From Gemmatimonadaceae bacterium (GTDB lineage Bacteria > Gemmatimonadota > Gemmatimonadetes > Gemmatimonadales > Gemmatimonadaceae): a DNA stretch of 64,000 bases. This document shows, piece after piece, positions 52,959 to 61,238 of this stretch; position 1 is the first letter of the stretch; each line of letters begins with the position of its first letter. The stretch is from NCBI GenBank assembly GCA_025358925.1, contig JANYHT010000050.1, positions 124,001 to 188,000 on the forward strand. Reading direction: 5' to 3'. The notes under the pieces were generated by a model that was given only the letters and a program-made list of their open reading frames with translations, was not told the DNA's origin and made no database searches. The position numbers and the translations under genes are program-made.

Positions 52959-54437
52959 TCATTCAGCGCGCGCTAAGTACACCGCCACTCGCGCCGCAAT
53001 CTGCTGCCCACTGGCCACACAATCCCCCACGGACACACCATTGCGATAATTCCCCGCGAGATACAAACCAGGGTTCTCCAACTCCATCGCGTCGGCCGCC
53101 GCTTTTACGGCCCCGTATCCCACCGTGTACTGCGGAATTGCTTTCGGCCAGAACACATGCTTCACGTACACCGGCTCGCCACGCACGCCGATCAGTGCCT
53201 GCAGGTCAGGCAACACACGCTGCACCAGCGCTGCCGTATGTTCGCGCGCTAACGCTGGATGTCGCGCACCTCCAACGAAACAGGTGACGGTGACATGCGC
53301 CTCCGCCGCGCGCGCAGGAAAGAGCGACGAGCTAAACAATACGCCCAAAATATTTCGCCGCTCTACGGCCGGAATGAGCATTCCAAATCCATCAAGCGGA
53401 TGCGCGACATCCCGACGTCGAAAGCCAAGCGTGAGAGCGCTCACTGGTGGATACTCCACGCGTTCAACACCGCCGGCCAACCGACGAAGCTCCGCTGGCA
53501 ACTCCATCGCCGCCAACGCGTGCGCCGGCGCCGCTAAGACCACGGCATCTACCGTTTGTTTGCGTGTGTCGAGATCTGACCCAGCCTCAAGCACCCACCG
53601 AGCATTGTCGCGGTGCAACAGCCGCGCAGGGCATCCTAATCGCAGCGTGTCGGTTAGCGATGCTTCGAGCGCGTCGGGTAGCGTCTGCATGCCATCAACG
53701 AATGAAATCAGACGCGCACTGATCGTCGGCGTTGCACTCCCCACCACCGTTCCGTTCGTGCGGACACTTGCACGGGCGCGCTTGGCGTCGCGGCGCTGCA
53801 CCATCAACCCTCTTGAAATCGAACCGTACGTACGCTCCAAGTTGTGCACGCGGGGGAATGCATGCGCCATCGACAGCGTTTCCGGATCACCGGCAAAGAT
53901 TCCGGAAATGAACGGGTCAACGGCGAAATCCAACACTTCACGTCCAAGACGACGTCGCACGAATGATGCAATCGACTCATCATCCGCACTCGCTCCGCGT
54001 GATACCAGCGGCTCAAGTAACACCCGCAGTTTTGCGCGAAACGAAAACAGTTTCGTACGTAACAGCGTCGACGGAGAGAGCGGGAACGGCACAAGGCGAC
54101 CGTTGCGTACGACGTAGCGCTTATTCGCTGACGGATTGGCCTCGACGACCTCATCCAACAAATCGAGCTTGGCAAGCAATGCTTCAACGGGTGCAGACGT
54201 CACGAACGAATTTGGTCCGTGCTCCGCAAGAAAACCGTCGTCCTTCGTGGTGCGAATGTTGCCGCCAGCATGCGGAGATGCTTCATACAGCGTCACGTCA
54301 ATGCCAACCCGTCGCAGTTCGAAGGCGACAACGAGTCCAGTGATGCCTGCGCCCACCACCGCGACGGACCGGTGCTCGCCTTTGTCCGAATCGCTTGCGG
54401 ATCGCATCGTAGCTATCCGATCGACGACAGCCGACAT
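52959..54437 (-). CDS. hemY: Oxygen-dependent protoporphyrinogen oxidase
   Basis: A 492-residue FAD protein. The dinucleotide-binding motif is VAVVGAGITGLVVAFELRR, followed by LYEASPHAGGNIRT, EHGPNSFVTS, and the C-terminal ENPGLYLAGNYRNGVSVGDCVASG that closes the FAD site. It oxidises protoporphyrinogen IX to protoporphyrin IX. The ATG at 54437 is 2 nt after the hemF stop. It is the last tetrapyrrole gene of the operon. Confidence 0.93.
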   Translation of the reverse strand: MSAVVDRIATMRSASDSDKGEHRSVAVVGAGITGLVVAFELRRVGIDVTLYEASPHAGGNIRTTKDDGFLAEHGPNSFVTSAPVEALLAKLDLLDEVVEANPSANKRYVVRNGRLVPFPLSPSTLLRTKLFSFRAKLRVLLEPLVSRGASADDESIASFVRRRLGREVLDFAVDPFISGIFAGDPETLSMAHAFPRVHNLERTYGSISRGLMVQRRDAKRARASVRTNGTVVGSATPTISARLISFVDGMQTLPDALEASLTDTLRLGCPARLLHRDNARWVLEAGSDLDTRKQTVDAVVLAAPAHALAAMELPAELRRLAGGVERVEYPPVSALTLGFRRRDVAHPLDGFGMLIPAVERRNILGVLFSSSLFPARAAEAHVTVTCFVGGARHPALAREHTAALVQRVLPDLQALIGVRGEPVYVKHVFWPKAIPQYTVGYGAVKAAADAMELENPGLYLAGNYRNGVSVGDCVASGQQIAARVAVYLARAE

Positions 54438-54439
54438 GG

Positions 54440-55441
54440 CTACGCGCCGCTCACGTCCGACGCCCAATCGCGCGGAACGAGCATTGCCACCAAACGCGCT
54501 TCAAACGAGTCCTCGGCATACCGCGGCGCATACTGCCACATCGCGAGCGGTGGAAGACTCATCAAAACACTCTCAACGCGTGCCTGCGTTTGCAATCCGA
54601 AAATCGTGCCGCGATCATGTACGAGATTGAACTCCACGTAGCGACCGCGGCGCACGAGCTGAAACTCGCGTTCAGCAGCACCAAACGTTTCATGACGTCG
54701 ACGCTCGACAATGGGTTCGTACGCGTGACGCAACACGCGCGCAACATCACTGACAAACGCCGATACTTGCTCGTGATTCAATCCATGCGAAGGGTCATCA
54801 GCGCGCACGTGATCGAAAAAAATTCCACCAACGCCTCGTGCCTCATTTCCGCGATGCGTGTTCACGAAATACTCATCACACCACCGTTTGAATTGCGGAT
54901 GAAACGACGCGTGGTGCCGATCACACATGGTGTGGAGCGCACGATGGAATTCGTGCGCATCGGCTCGATGCGGATAGAACGGCGTGAGATCGGTACCGCC
55001 GCCAAACCAACTATCGGTCAGATGACCGTGTTCATCAGTCAATTCGAAGTACCGCACGTTGAGATGCACGGTAGGCACCATCGGACTCCGAGGATGCACG
55101 ACGAGGCTCACGCCGGTCGCGAAAAAATGCGTGGCACCAGCGGCCGCACCGTTTCCACCCAATCGATGCGCGGCAAGCTCAGGTAACTCACCAAGTACGG
55201 CCGAGCGATTGATGCCCGCTTTTTCAAATGTGATGCCGTCGGTCATCACGCGCGCAACGCCGCCACCGCCGCCCGGACGCTCCCATCGATCCTCAGCAAA
55301 CGTGCCCCCTTGGTCGAGTCGCCCGAAGAAAGACGTCAACTCATCATGCAGCCCGGCAATCCACCGCTTTGCTTCTGCTCGTCGCGACACGACGGACGAT
55401 GTCGCGGCCAACCGTTCCGTTGGCAACACGGACTTGCTCAC
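54440..55441 (-). CDS. hemF: Oxygen-dependent coproporphyrinogen III oxidase
   Basis: A 333-residue HemF. Conserved stretches: WERPGGGGGVARVM, FEKAGINRS, VHLNVRYFEL, SWFGGGTDLTPFYP, and RYVEFNLVHDRGTIFGLQT. It converts coproporphyrinogen III to protoporphyrinogen IX with oxygen. It starts at a GTG that overlaps the hemE stop by 4 nt. The presence of HemF and HemY, both oxygen-using, points to aerobic heme synthesis. Confidence 0.95.
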   Translation of the reverse strand: MSKSVLPTERLAATSSVVSRRAEAKRWIAGLHDELTSFFGRLDQGGTFAEDRWERPGGGGGVARVMTDGITFEKAGINRSAVLGELPELAAHRLGGNGAAAGATHFFATGVSLVVHPRSPMVPTVHLNVRYFELTDEHGHLTDSWFGGGTDLTPFYPHRADAHEFHRALHTMCDRHHASFHPQFKRWCDEYFVNTHRGNEARGVGGIFFDHVRADDPSHGLNHEQVSAFVSDVARVLRHAYEPIVERRRHETFGAAEREFQLVRRGRYVEFNLVHDRGTIFGLQTQARVESVLMSLPPLAMWQYAPRYAEDSFEARLVAMLVPRDWASDVSGA

Positions 55442-56547
55442 GGCGCACCGGCACGTTGCGCGTGATTGGCAGATCGAGCGAGCGCCTCATCGGTCCAACG
55501 CCATTCCTTCACGGCATCGACAAATGCGCGCGCGTGCGCGGGCGGAATATCCGGCAGTATTCCGTGACCGAGATTCGCTATGTGGCCAATCGGACCAAAC
55601 GCGGAAATCATCTCGTGCGTGCGCTGGCGAATTTTCGCCGGCGCTGCGTACAACGCACACGGATCAAGATTGCCTTGTAACGCCACCGTGCGAGCTTGGG
55701 TGAGCTGCCGTGCCGTTTGCGGCGTCGTGTGCCAATCAACACCAATGGCTTCGGCGTTTGTTGCGTCGGCAATTTCGCCCAACGCCCAACCCGCACCGGG
55801 AGCGAACACGATCAGCGGCGCGCCGGTTGACTGCACGCGCTTTGCAATGCGCGCCAGGTATGGCAGGCAGAACGTGCGAAACTCTCGCGGACCAAGCGCA
55901 CCGGCCCACGACTCGAACAACTGCAAGACCTGCGCACCCGCTTCGACCTGCGCAACCATATAATCGCCAACCGCGGTTGCTAAATGATCAAGCAGCGCGT
56001 GTGCCACCGCAGGCTGTTCAAATAGCAGTCGCTTTGCGAGCGCGAATTGCTTGGTCCCTTTCCCTTCGATCATGTACGCGGCCAGCGTCCACGGGGCTCC
56101 CGCGAACCCAATCAATGGGACGCGATTGCCAATCTCATGGCGCGCGAGACGCAGCGCATCGAGGACATACCCCAGGCTTTCCTGCGGGTCAACTTTACGC
56201 AGCCGAGCAATGTCGGTGGCCGTGCGCACGGGCACCGGGAACTGCGGTCCGATGCCTTCATCGAGCGTAAGCTTCATGCCCATCGCTTCAGGAACGACAA
56301 GAATATCACTGAAAATAATTGCCGCATCAACGCCGACGAGATGCAGGGGTTGCAACGTGACCTCCACCGCAAGTTCGGGCGTCCGACACATCGTCAAAAA
56401 ATCCGATTTCGCCCGCACCGCACGATACTCCGGCAGATAACGTCCCGCTTGACGCATCATCCACACCGGTGGGCGTTCTACCGGTTCCGAACGCAGCGCG
56501 CGCAGCAGCAGATCGTTGGTGAGTGCAACAGCAGGTAAAGCAGTCAC
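55438..56547 (-). CDS. hemE: Uroporphyrinogen decarboxylase
   Basis: A 369-residue HemE that decarboxylates uroporphyrinogen III to coproporphyrinogen III. Motifs: PPVWMMRQAGRYLPEYR (active-site signature), AIIFSDILVVPEAMGM, GFAGAPWTLAAYMIEGKG, and NLGHGILPDIPPAHARAFVDAV. It lies 5 nt downstream of hemA. Confidence 0.96.
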   Translation of the reverse strand: MTALPAVALTNDLLLRALRSEPVERPPVWMMRQAGRYLPEYRAVRAKSDFLTMCRTPELAVEVTLQPLHLVGVDAAIIFSDILVVPEAMGMKLTLDEGIGPQFPVPVRTATDIARLRKVDPQESLGYVLDALRLARHEIGNRVPLIGFAGAPWTLAAYMIEGKGTKQFALAKRLLFEQPAVAHALLDHLATAVGDYMVAQVEAGAQVLQLFESWAGALGPREFRTFCLPYLARIAKRVQSTGAPLIVFAPGAGWALGEIADATNAEAIGVDWHTTPQTARQLTQARTVALQGNLDPCALYAAPAKIRQRTHEMISAFGPIGHIANLGHGILPDIPPAHARAFVDAVKEWRWTDEALARSANHAQRAGAP

Positions 56548-56552
56548 CAGAA

Positions 56553-57941
56553 CTATTCCGTCGAAAGTGCGAACGGCAGTTCGCGTGTCGGCGCCGTACG
56601 CGGAGTGCCTCTCGCGCCCACCGAGCTCACTTCGCGAGTTGTTGATGCTGCGGGACGACTAGTGCGCGGAGCGCGCGTCATCGGCGTGGCGCTTGGGGCA
56701 AACATTTCGAGCAACATCATCGCCTGCGCATCCAACGGTTCGCCTCGTTGCACGGTTCGGCGAAGCGCCGCCATCGGGCCCGCCAATAATTTTGCCACGA
56801 TCCGTGACGCCGTACGCTCAGCCACTTCTGCATCGCCAGCCGCGTAAGCAACTTCGCGACGCGCCACGCCTTCCAATGCTTCCCGTAACGGTTTGATAGC
56901 GTCGCGCGCGGGCATTGCGGCGAGCCATTGTTTGAATTGATAAATTTCGTCTTCACAAATGTGCGCGGCCACGGGTATTGCGTCGCGGCGCGTGTCTTCT
57001 GCCTCAAGCAGTGGCTGATGCAGCGTATCGAGGTCAATCAGCGTCACGCCCAGTTGATCTGCCGCACGTGGATCAATGTTACGCGGCACACTGAGATCCA
57101 TCAGCAACAATGCGTAGCCCGACGCCGCGCAGTCCGCGCGCGCGCGCGCCAGCGCGGGGCCTATCACTAGGGGTATATCACTCGACGTCGCGACAATGAC
57201 CACGTCAGCCATGGCGGCCTCAATGTGAATCGCGTCCATAGGAGCCGCGCGACCGCCGATATAGTGCGCGAGCTCATGCGCTTTGTCGAACGTGCGATTG
57301 AGAATCACCACGTCGCCTGCGCCGAGCTTGTGCAACTGTTTCGCCGCGCGCGTACCTGTCGTACCCGCACCGACAACGACGCATCGCGCATTCTGCAAGT
57401 CGCCTAAACGCTGCGCTGCGGTAACGGCAGCTTCCGCGCCAATTGAGTGGCGACCTGCTGAGAGCGACGTCTCCGTGTGCACGCGCTTACCGGCGCGAAG
57501 TGCAGTTTCAAACAGCCGATGCAAAACCGGACCCGCCGCTTGACCACGCGTCGCGCCTTTATAAGCCGCACGCAGCTGGCCAAGAATTTCTCCGTCGCCC
57601 AGTACCTGCGATTCTAGACCCGACGCAATGCGCACAACGTGCCGAGCCGCATTGTCACCGTAGCGACGTGTCGCAATGTGCAGCAGATCGTCGGCATCGG
57701 CACGAGTGCGCATCCATCGTCTGGCCAATGACAGCACTGCGCGTTCCACCACCTTCATATCGTCGCTATCGATCCACGCATACAGTTCCGTGCGGTTGCA
57801 CGTAGCAATTAAAGCGACTTCTGTGACAACTTCGCTACGCGCCGTGCGATAGAGTTGCGTGAGTCGCTCCTCCGACAAATGGAAGCGTTCACGCGTCGCC
57901 ACATCGGCAAGCCGGAAATCGATAGCGATCGAAATCAGCAT
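56553..57941 (-). CDS. hemA: Glutamyl-tRNA reductase
   Basis: A 462-residue glutamyl-tRNA reductase of the C5 pathway, making glutamate-1-semialdehyde. The catalytic Cys is in LIATCNRTELYAW; other motifs are GLESQVLGDGEILGQLR, AGKRVHTETSLSAG, and the NADPH-binding VVVGAGTTGTRAAKQL. A Ser/Thr/Pro/Arg-rich tail of about 50 residues follows the dimerisation domain. It is the first intact gene of the operon; the bchP relic ends 25 nt upstream. Confidence 0.96.
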   Translation of the reverse strand: MLISIAIDFRLADVATRERFHLSEERLTQLYRTARSEVVTEVALIATCNRTELYAWIDSDDMKVVERAVLSLARRWMRTRADADDLLHIATRRYGDNAARHVVRIASGLESQVLGDGEILGQLRAAYKGATRGQAAGPVLHRLFETALRAGKRVHTETSLSAGRHSIGAEAAVTAAQRLGDLQNARCVVVGAGTTGTRAAKQLHKLGAGDVVILNRTFDKAHELAHYIGGRAAPMDAIHIEAAMADVVIVATSSDIPLVIGPALARARADCAASGYALLLMDLSVPRNIDPRAADQLGVTLIDLDTLHQPLLEAEDTRRDAIPVAAHICEDEIYQFKQWLAAMPARDAIKPLREALEGVARREVAYAAGDAEVAERTASRIVAKLLAGPMAALRRTVQRGEPLDAQAMMLLEMFAPSATPMTRAPRTSRPAASTTREVSSVGARGTPRTAPTRELPFALSTE

Positions 57942-57966: not shown

Positions 57967-58681
57967 TCATGCCGAAGCGATACCCGCGAGGTGCGCGAGA
58001 TTCTTCACGACGATGCGCGAATGTGCGAATGGTTTCGCGGTGACCAACTGCTTGTTCATGGAGCCGCCGAAGGTAAGCTGCTGTACATCCCTGTCACGAC
58101 AGATAGCACCCAATGGTTCGCAACGATGGCCGTCGCTGTTGCAAAAATCTTGCATGTCGGCCACGACGAATACGGTACCGCGCATTCGCAAGAATCGACG
58201 ACCCGCATGTTACAGCGCTCCAGCGCAACTGGAAGATAGCGACTCTACCACGGCACCTGCCGCAAACGGCCAACGGTCATTGCATAAAAAATGCTCTCGC
58301 CACTCGCGGGCGCAACTACTCCGGCGGCATCGCCGACTAAAACGACGTCGAATCCGGTATCCCAGCGTGGATGCGGCTTAATGGGAATCGGCGCGCCTGC
58401 CGGGAGAGTAGTATCAACCGAGTCTAAACCCGCCCAGTGTCGTAAACTCGCCACGGCCTGTTTCAGACCGAAGCCGCACTGCAACGTACCGGTTCTGATG
58501 TTGGCTGTCGCCCCGTGCGGAATGGCCCATGCGTAAAAGTCCGGATAGAGTACCGCGTAGTAATACGCGTCACATCGTGTCATTGACGATTCCGTGAAAC
58601 GCAAAAACATGTTTCGCTCTTGCCTCACTGTTTACGTTGCTCGGGAAACTTTGTCGCCCTTGATCACGCCGAAAAAAATGT
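57967..58681 (-). pseudogene. bchP: Degenerate geranylgeranyl reductase gene (bchP/chlP relic)
   Basis: Three minus-strand frames read in order give the C-terminal part of BchP/ChlP. Frame one: GVIKGDKVSRAT (to about 58632). Frame two: SEARAKHVFAFHGIV (ends 58570). Frame three: RCDAYYYAVLYPDFYAWAIPHG, QAVASLRHWAGLDS, GAPIPIKPHPRWDTG and VVLVGDAAGVVAPASGESI, ending at TAG 58247-58245. After a shift near 58255: AGAVVESLSSS, a TAA at 58212-58210, then RRFLRMRGTVF, CRDRDVQQLTF, MNKQLVTAKPFAH and VKNLAHLAGIASA to the stop at 57967. The FAD-binding N-terminal half is absent. At least three frameshifts and one nonsense codon make it non-functional. BchP reduces the geranylgeranyl tail in bacteriochlorophyll synthesis. 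Confidence 0.85.
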
Positions 58682-58747
58682 ACAGTATTGGTTCTTGGCG
58701 GTGCGAAAGCATTGACACGAAGTGCGCGGTCGTGCGGGCGCACGTGT

Positions 58748-59992
58748 TCACTCGTATCGTAAGGCTTCAATCGGATCGAGTAACGATGCCCGTCGCGCTG
58801 GAATGAGACCAAAGACAATCCCGATGCTGATGGAAACCACGACGGCAATCGCTGTGAGCGAAATGGGCACCGGTGCATCGATGCTCATCGCGAGCGACGC
58901 AACGCGTCCAAGCACCAGCCCAAACAGAATGCCAATCACACCACCAATCCCAGTGAGTGTTGCCGCCTCGACAAGAAACTGTTGCAAAATGTCACGTCGT
59001 GTTGCTCCGAGTGCTTTCCGAACTCCAATTTCACGTGTTCGACTGGTGACCGACACCGTCATGATCGCCATCACGCCAATACCACCGACAAGCAAGGCAA
59101 CCGCCGACAGCACAATCATCACCAAGAAAAACACATTCGTGAGATTGTTGAACGTGTCGAGCACTTGATCTTGCGTGACGAGATCGAAGGTGTTGCCGTC
59201 GGCCGGGTGCAGTCGGCGCATCTCGCGAAGCGCCATGATCACCGCGCCCTGCGCGTCTGCCACGCTTACGCCGGTGCGCGGACGAATTGGAATCCATAAC
59301 GCGTTGGTGCGATCAATATCGAATTGATGATCAAGCATGCGGTACGGCACCACGGCCCCAACGGATGTTCCGGGCGGTGCGAAGATATTCGCAGGTTCTT
59401 GCCAGAGACCAATAATTTCCGCCGGGCGTCCACCAATCCGAATCCATCGACCCAAACTTTGTTCACGACCAAACAGCCGCAGCGCCGCGCGTTCTTCCAG
59501 GATGACGACGGGAGAGCCTGCGTTCATCTCGTTTTTCGTAAACCAACGGCCCGCTTGCAATTCGCCACCCTGAATCAACGGGAACCCATCGTCGGCGCCA
59601 AACACTGCCATCGGTTGCGAGCGAATGCCTTGAGACTCGATGCGCGCCAGCGCCTGACCCCAGAGCGCTGCATAACCAATCTCCGGCAAGCGACGAATAC
59701 GGTCGGCTTCGCGCTCGCTGAGGTCAGGGCGAATGCGAACATCCTTTGGCAGGTTGGCTGGATTGAGCGGCACCGCCGAAAACTTTTTCAATACGTAAAA
59801 CGTGGTTGGGCCAGCAACTTCAAATGTGCGATTGATTTGCCCTTGAATGCCCTGCACAATAGCGGCCATCGCCATGACGGTCGCAACGCCAATGACAACA
59901 CCGAGAATGGTGAGCGACGAGCGCAGCTTATTTGCGCGCAGCGCATCGATGGCGATACGCACATTTTCTGAGAGGGCACCGGCAGGACGCAC
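58748..59992 (-). CDS. MacB/FtsX-type ABC transporter permease 1
   Basis: A 414-residue permease from the GTG at 59992, one nt after the preceding stop. Plan: N-terminal membrane helix (ANKLRSSLTILGVVIGVATV), a large MacB-type periplasmic domain (about 45-280), then three FtsX-domain helices (about 290-400) with the marker SRTREIGVRKALGATRRDIL, and the end PARRASLLDPIEALRYE. Such proteins couple cytoplasmic ATPases to periplasmic mechanics or lipoprotein/antibiotic export. Last of a five-gene tandem run. Confidence 0.9.
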   Translation of the reverse strand: MRPAGALSENVRIAIDALRANKLRSSLTILGVVIGVATVMAMAAIVQGIQGQINRTFEVAGPTTFYVLKKFSAVPLNPANLPKDVRIRPDLSEREADRIRRLPEIGYAALWGQALARIESQGIRSQPMAVFGADDGFPLIQGGELQAGRWFTKNEMNAGSPVVILEERAALRLFGREQSLGRWIRIGGRPAEIIGLWQEPANIFAPPGTSVGAVVPYRMLDHQFDIDRTNALWIPIRPRTGVSVADAQGAVIMALREMRRLHPADGNTFDLVTQDQVLDTFNNLTNVFFLVMIVLSAVALLVGGIGVMAIMTVSVTSRTREIGVRKALGATRRDILQQFLVEAATLTGIGGVIGILFGLVLGRVASLAMSIDAPVPISLTAIAVVVSISIGIVFGLIPARRASLLDPIEALRYE

Positions 59993-59993
59993 G

Positions 59994-61238
59994 TCAGGTT
60001 TCGGCGCGCATCGCAGTGATCGGATCAAGCTTCGCGGCCCGTGATGCAGGGTAAACACCAAACAGCACCCCAATACCGGCCCCAAGGGAGAGCGCCAATG
60101 CCACGGACCACGGTGTGACGCGCGCTGGGAGGGGTGAGAACGCCGCGATTGCTGCCGCAAGGACCCAACCGCTCAGCACCCCTAAAATTCCGCCAAGCAG
60201 TGACAGCGCAATCGCTTCCGCAAGAAATTGTTTACGCACATCGAGCGACGTGGCCCCCATCGCTTTACGAATGCCAATTTCGTGCGTGCGCTCAGTCACG
60301 GACATCAACATGATGTTCATGATGACAATGCCGCCGACCAAAACACCGATCGCCACGACAGCGGGTACTACGGCGAAGAGCACGGCGGTGAGTTGATTCC
60401 AGAAATCAACCAACGCCTCTGCCGTGCTGACCGAGAAATTGTCCGCGTCAGTCGGGCGTAAACCGCGCACAACACGCATCGCCTCCTCAGCGCGCGCCAT
60501 CGCTGATGCGACCTGCGCGGCGTCGCGCACCTTAACTGAGACTGTGGTGGTCTGGCGACGACCGTACATGGCTTCGAACGCGGTGATCGGCATCAGCGCA
60601 AAGCCGTCAAACGATTGACCGAGGACGCGACCCTTGCGCGCAATCACACCAACGATGGTGAATCGCTGACCCATGATGCGCACTTCTTGATCGACGACTG
60701 GCGCACCGGCAAACAACGTGCTCGCGACGTCAGCGCCAACCACAATCACGTTGCGACGTTCGCGCACGTCAAGGTCCGTGAGTGGACGACCGTCAGTGAA
60801 TCGATAATCTTGCACGGTCTGATACGCGCTCGTGACGCCAAAAACCTGGACGTTGCCTAGCGTGCGATCACGCCACACCACATCCGCTTGCGGCGTCGGC
60901 CACCCGGATTGCAAGCTGATGGCGAGCGCATCTGGGAGTGCCACGCGCACCGCGTCCGCGTCCCGTTCATTAATGCGCGGGCGCTTTTGCAACACACGAA
61001 ATTCGTCGTCGTTGAACAGGCCTATACTGAGTGGCGTGCGGCGCACTTGAAACGTGTTCATGCCAATCATCGCGTCGGCAATGTTTTCCTTTACGTACGC
61101 GTTCATGCCCTGAATGATCGCCACCACCGCCACCAAAAACCCCACTGACACTACAATGCCGAGCAGCGTGAACGCCGTGCGCAGCGGATTGACGCGCAGT
61201 TGCATGAGCGCAAGTCGAATGACATCGCTGAATCGCAC
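59994..61238 (-). CDS. MacB/FtsX-type ABC transporter permease 2
   Basis: A 414-residue permease with the same plan as its neighbours: NPLRTAFTLLGIVVSVGFLV at the N-terminus, a periplasmic domain with NVIVVGADVASTLFAG, then ERTHEIGIRKAMGATSLDV and a final PASRAAKLDPITAMRAE. It alternates in subtype with permease 1: its start (MRFSDVIRLALMQLRVNPLR) resembles that of permease 4, which suggests duplicated pairs forming heterodimers (inference). Confidence 0.9.
   Translation of the reverse strand: MRFSDVIRLALMQLRVNPLRTAFTLLGIVVSVGFLVAVVAIIQGMNAYVKENIADAMIGMNTFQVRRTPLSIGLFNDDEFRVLQKRPRINERDADAVRVALPDALAISLQSGWPTPQADVVWRDRTLGNVQVFGVTSAYQTVQDYRFTDGRPLTDLDVRERRNVIVVGADVASTLFAGAPVVDQEVRIMGQRFTIVGVIARKGRVLGQSFDGFALMPITAFEAMYGRRQTTTVSVKVRDAAQVASAMARAEEAMRVVRGLRPTDADNFSVSTAEALVDFWNQLTAVLFAVVPAVVAIGVLVGGIVIMNIMLMSVTERTHEIGIRKAMGATSLDVRKQFLAEAIALSLLGGILGVLSGWVLAAAIAAFSPLPARVTPWSVALALSLGAGIGVLFGVYPASRAAKLDPITAMRAET

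Follow-up and report, generated by a model that had tools for sequence, protein, structure and literature searches.

A decayed bchP gene beside the heme operon very probably marks the loss of a complete photosynthesis gene cluster in a Gemmatimonas lineage

The Gemmatimonadota are the textbook case of a phylum that gained a whole photosynthesis gene cluster by transfer between phyla. Whether its non-phototrophic members never had this cluster or lost it has been left open so far. Loss and transfer of the cluster are well studied in Proteobacteria (PMC6052148, PMC4919336), while for Gemmatimonadota many losses of this kind are mentioned only as possible (PMC7844134). The question is raised anew by a locus within a stretch of 64,000 nucleotides, hereafter referred to as the window, from a draft genome of the genus Gemmatimonas (G000; 4.0 Mb in 72 contigs, 96% complete). 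Other G-numbers denote relatives within the genus set. The features of the locus are as follows.

52959-54467, minus strand: intact gene of a HemY-type protoporphyrinogen oxidase (TIGR00562, E 8.9e-91)
54440-55441, minus strand: intact hemF, coproporphyrinogen III oxidase (PF01218, E 1.3e-113)
55438-56547, minus strand: intact hemE, uroporphyrinogen decarboxylase (TIGR01464, E 4.8e-126)
56553-57941, minus strand: intact hemA, glutamyl-tRNA reductase (TIGR01035, E 1.8e-84)
57979-58620, minus strand: bchP pseudogene covering BchP codons ~164-390, its N-terminal FAD-binding half being gone (TIGR02023 matches and frameshift-aware alignment)
58210-58212, minus strand: in-frame TAA stop in the C-terminal piece, the one TAA within the profile match
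58245-58628, minus strand: longest relic piece still open, 127 aa in the list of open reading frames, covering BchP profile positions 188-293
58263-58266, minus strand: frameshift between two relic pieces, whose profile matches lie in different frames with an overlap of a few bases
58621-58747, no strand: putative deletion junction, where the relic is joined to the permease end; site of the missing ~36 kb cluster by synteny with G253, G140, G090, and G146
58748-60160, minus strand: MacB-like ABC permease (MacB_PCD and FtsX domains), last gene of the operon flanking the far end of the cluster in phototrophs

A sequence-only reading of this DNA had described positions 57967 to 58681 as a decayed bchP, with the C-terminal half of a BchP/ChlP geranylgeranyl reductase scattered over several minus-strand frames, and had proposed a frameshift-aware comparison together with a family test. 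Both analyses bore this description out, with the relic itself (57979-58620) being slightly shorter than first delimited. The longest open piece matched the BchP-ChlP profile TIGR02023 with an E-value of 1.1e-31 (110.2 bits) and the C-terminal piece with 2.4e-8. BchP was the best family, reaching 110.2 bits compared with 62.2 for GG-red-SF and 45.6 for ChlP, and thereby ranked ahead of the other geranylgeranyl reductase families. The whole-genome profile search likewise returned two adjoining pieces in different frames (106.6 and 55.3 bits), which are not full length and lie below the curated TIGR02023 cut-off of 343 bits. Frameshift-aware alignment to an intact Gemmatimonas BchP scored 635 in contrast to at most 41 for 20 shuffled sequences, pairing window positions 58580 to 57979 with BchP residues 189-390. 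At the 5′ end of the relic, a collinear 12-residue match to BchP 164-175 was found at about 58585-58620, being weak on its own (25.0 bits vs. a shuffle top of 25.4). For BchP residues 1 to ~163, including the FAD-binding Rossmann motif, no match was obtained, and the sequence upstream is that of the ABC permease.

The frameshifts, the internal TAA, and the loss of the FAD-binding half, all of which had been predicted from the letters, were confirmed. The relic carries at least two frame breaks, one near 58580-58585 and the frameshift at about 58263-58266, and one codon is missing in addition. The bchP copy in the window is a dead gene. It shares 61-68% of its residues with intact bchP, whereas pairs of phototrophs with equal hemA distance share 84% on average and at least 78%, and 18-23% of its second codon positions are changed compared with 9% in comparable intact pairs. 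Judged from these substitutions, the relic is free to decay.

As anticipated, the relic points into a hemA-hemE-hemF-hemY operon, and all four genes proved to be intact. The adjoining hemA is the only full glutamyl-tRNA reductase gene found in G000, the remaining matches being weak and partial, and the search for a 5-aminolevulinate synthase as a substitute for hemA yielded only family relatives below the cut-off in all genomes. Since the cell would thus depend on this hemA as its sole full glutamyl-tRNA reductase, the heme genes were presumably retained by selection. A second, divergent hemA is located close to hemH in some members of the genus (G140:C1:5129037, G090:C1:3474628, G253:C42:18108; also loci L230 and L231), including the non-phototrophs G039 and G133; none is present in G000.

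Extension of the analysis toward the genus showed that the hemA of the window occurs in 25 out of 30 Gemmatimonas genomes. In all 24 others of these, an intact bchP is found directly upstream of hemA at a distance of ~40 bp, so that among the hemA-bearing genomes bchP is broken in the window genome alone. Four phototrophs, in which the region was read end to end (G253, G140, G090, and G146), share the order hemY-F-E-A-bchP, photosynthesis gene cluster, MacB-like ABC permeases, the interval from bchP to the permease spanning ~36 kb in G253 and being somewhat longer in the other three. Counted from the bchP side, the G253 cluster comprises a pucC-like gene, bchG, ppsR, a B12-binding regulator, bchF, N, B, H, L, M, and acsF, followed by a second pucC-like gene (lhaA), puhA, puhC, pufM, pufL, bchO, and bchZ, Y, X, C, and at its far end a crtF-like gene, bchI, bchD, puhE, and a chemotaxis receptor.

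The permease of the window has a 74-77% identical orthologue at exactly this far end in the relatives. In the window, however, its end lies ~130 bp from the relic: the two conserved flanks of the cluster are joined and the cluster between them, which fills precisely this gap in the four phototrophs, is gone. Remnants of puhE, the methyl-accepting protein, and bchD were sought at the junction, but none rose above chance, leaving bchP as the sole recognisable remnant there. The remainder of G000 was screened with profiles and with concatenated proteins, as the sequence-only reading had likewise suggested. No match to a reaction-centre protein (Photo_RC) was detected in the 4.0 Mb (96% complete), and none of seven other cluster genes, including AcsF, BchF, BchZ, BchC, PpsR, and PuhA, was found elsewhere in the genome, the sole matches being weak and confined to the methyltransferase part of the query.

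A closely related genome contributes the opposite end of the cluster. G306, a sister species whose rpoBC is 99.8% identical to that of G000, carries the site in the middle of a contig (L115 10761-13810, G306:C120), where 1.4 kb separates the permease end from a hemA stump, codons 1-22, that directly adjoins hemF. Two decayed remnants were identified within the 1.4 kb: a puhE oriented as in the cluster (61.6 bits, with shuffles reaching at most 30) and, immediately ahead of hemA, a bchP scrap of 20 codons (29.3 bits, with 1000 shuffles reaching at most 25.8). In order and orientation the two scraps agree with the intact cluster, one coming from either end of it, while the window keeps the bchP end only. 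We considered two separate losses on account of these differing relics and dropped the idea, as both are explained by a shared deletion that reached from puhE to bchP codon ~150, with later erosion. As the empty site is common to G306 and G000, the loss probably set in before these species diverged. The earlier claim that phototrophy was lost fairly recently holds with respect to the loss itself; "recently" is to be understood in relative terms and carries no date, the relic standing at 61-68% identity against 84% for intact genes. At the same site, G306 has also lost hemE, hemY, and nearly all of hemA, and its hemB and hemH are truncated as well, each lacking an internal segment whose flanking DNA is 87-91% identical. 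As a consequence of these losses and truncations, which lie in mid-contig (L115, L250, L256), G306 is predicted to be, probably, a heme auxotroph.

Three other histories of the locus were weighed. A lineage that never had the full cluster, and in which a lone bchP fragment arrived with the heme operon and decayed, would agree with bchP being all that is recognisable in the window itself. However, in the relatives read end to end bchP lies within the cluster, with the same permease operon at the far end, and the puhE relic that G306 carries at this site belongs to the other end of the cluster and strongly disfavours such an origin, which we consider very improbable. Equally little credit is due to an assembly artefact, by which the cluster was skipped or two strains were joined and the frameshifts are sequencing errors. 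The genome is indeed a draft of 72 contigs; yet the relic is diverged throughout and thus beyond mere frameshifts, neither the reaction centre nor other tested cluster genes turned up anywhere in the genome, and the empty site with its decayed ends recurs in G306, an independent genome. With ~4% of the genome possibly missing, the cluster could also have been relocated or reside on an unassembled plasmid of a still phototrophic organism, but given that no reaction-centre or other tested cluster gene occurs in 4.0 Mb and that the place of the cluster is conserved in the relatives examined, the chance of this is slim.

The locus is hence very probably the scar left by the loss of a complete photosynthesis gene cluster in a Gemmatimonas lineage. 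Descent from a phototroph, as postulated by the sequence-only reading, is supported by the BchP family test, by the position of bchP upstream of hemA in 24 out of 24 genomes, and by the cluster filling the gap in four phototrophs. On the basis of sequence comparison, the relic is direct evidence of a light-using ancestor that turned non-photosynthetic. The relic, the synteny, the absence of the cluster, and the intact hem genes are the observed parts of this history; the steps linking them would be the following. The ancestor would have carried hemY-hemF-hemE-hemA-bchP, then the pucC-like gene, bchG, ppsR, the B12-binding regulator, bchFNBHLM, acsF, lhaA, puh genes, pufML, bchO, bchZYXC, the crtF-like gene, bchID, and puhE, and finally the ABC permeases. 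The stretch between the interior of bchP and the permease gene would have gone either in one deletion of ~36 kb or in a main one with erosion thereafter, a single main deletion being the step we infer, and the remaining 3′ part of bchP would then have decayed freely.

Further members of the genus show the site in other states. In G305, the permease is directly followed by a PIG-L gene (L116 5240-5360, G305:C632), the cluster and all four hem genes being gone from the site, and neither hemB nor hemH was found in this 84% complete genome. In G039 and G133 the cluster is absent, and the site holds hemF-hemE together with two chemotaxis receptors and the permeases. No cluster relics were detected at the empty sites of these three genomes, in which loss of the cluster is nevertheless likely. 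In G039 and G133, the empty site alone is no proof of loss because there is no relic, hemA and hemY are absent from the site, and a divergent hemA is located elsewhere. G304, in which hemA was not found at first, was initially taken as a non-phototroph; as much of the cluster is present, it was counted with the phototrophs.

In the rpoBC tree, a single clade of the five genomes whose site lacks the cluster was rejected (AU p 1.7e-5), as was a pairing of G039 with G133 (AU p 8.7e-5), while a grouping of G000, G306, and G305 was compatible with the data (AU p 0.13). Since these genomes form no single clade, the cluster was probably lost more than once. In the rpoBC data, G000 and G306 sit on a long branch close to the root of the genus, not nested, whereas the hemA tree positions G000 among the phototrophs, together with G299 and G315 (support 100/99); the basal placement of G000 is probably a long-branch effect. 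The sampled stretches of G000, G306, and G305 have a G+C content of 59-60% in comparison to 61-74%, rendering the placement of these three unsure. BchP and hemA trees put G253/G298 and G303 with the G090 group, which rpoBC does not (L078, L083, L073). Due to the partial disagreement between the BchP, hemA, and rpoBC trees, members of the genus may have exchanged the cluster among themselves, and other genomes of the genus may have gained it by recombination at this site.

The sequence-only reading had further proposed that the heme operon was once part of the cluster. In support of this, hemA follows bchP across the genus, and in several other genera as well as a second family of the class, most phototrophs likewise have the two genes side by side or no more than ~1 kb apart (loci L010-L033). 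In G. phototrophica, the hem operon lies next to the cluster and is down-regulated together with it after illumination (PMC11406998). Within this class, the heme operon thus seems to be transferred or passed down together with the photosynthesis cluster, which suggests that both are inherited as one unit, so that losing one would expose the other to loss.

Compared with the cluster of G. phototrophica and G. groenlandica (bchP2G side, adjacent hem operon), the window shares the locus, the neighbours on both sides, and the order and orientation of bchP and hemA, but lacks the whole cluster apart from a broken 3′ part of bchP. Non-phototrophs of the G. aurantiaca type (G039 and G133) have the same site without the cluster and hemF-hemE near the same permease operon, and differ from the window in the points named above. 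In Rhodobacteraceae and Erythrobacter, non-phototrophs likewise occur in between phototrophs within a single genus or family; the excerpts from PMC6052148 and PMC4919336 argue from tree patterns and transfer, whereas the window holds a decayed gene at the site itself, and in another phylum. Text searches on the phylum in the open-access literature retrieved no earlier report of such a scar in Gemmatimonadota, and one may exist elsewhere. The locus adds a case to a known kind of loss, and its scar is unusually clear.

With a decayed gene at a fixed locus and both flanks conserved, the question whether non-phototrophic Gemmatimonadota never had the cluster or lost it becomes testable genome by genome. 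Loss of phototrophy may moreover have set off a stepwise loss of heme synthesis, given the linkage of heme operon and cluster, with the species of the window coming first, G306 next, and G305 as the end point. We put this forward tentatively, considering it almost as probable as its contrary. If it is true, the heme auxotrophs within Gemmatimonas would be descendants of phototrophs.
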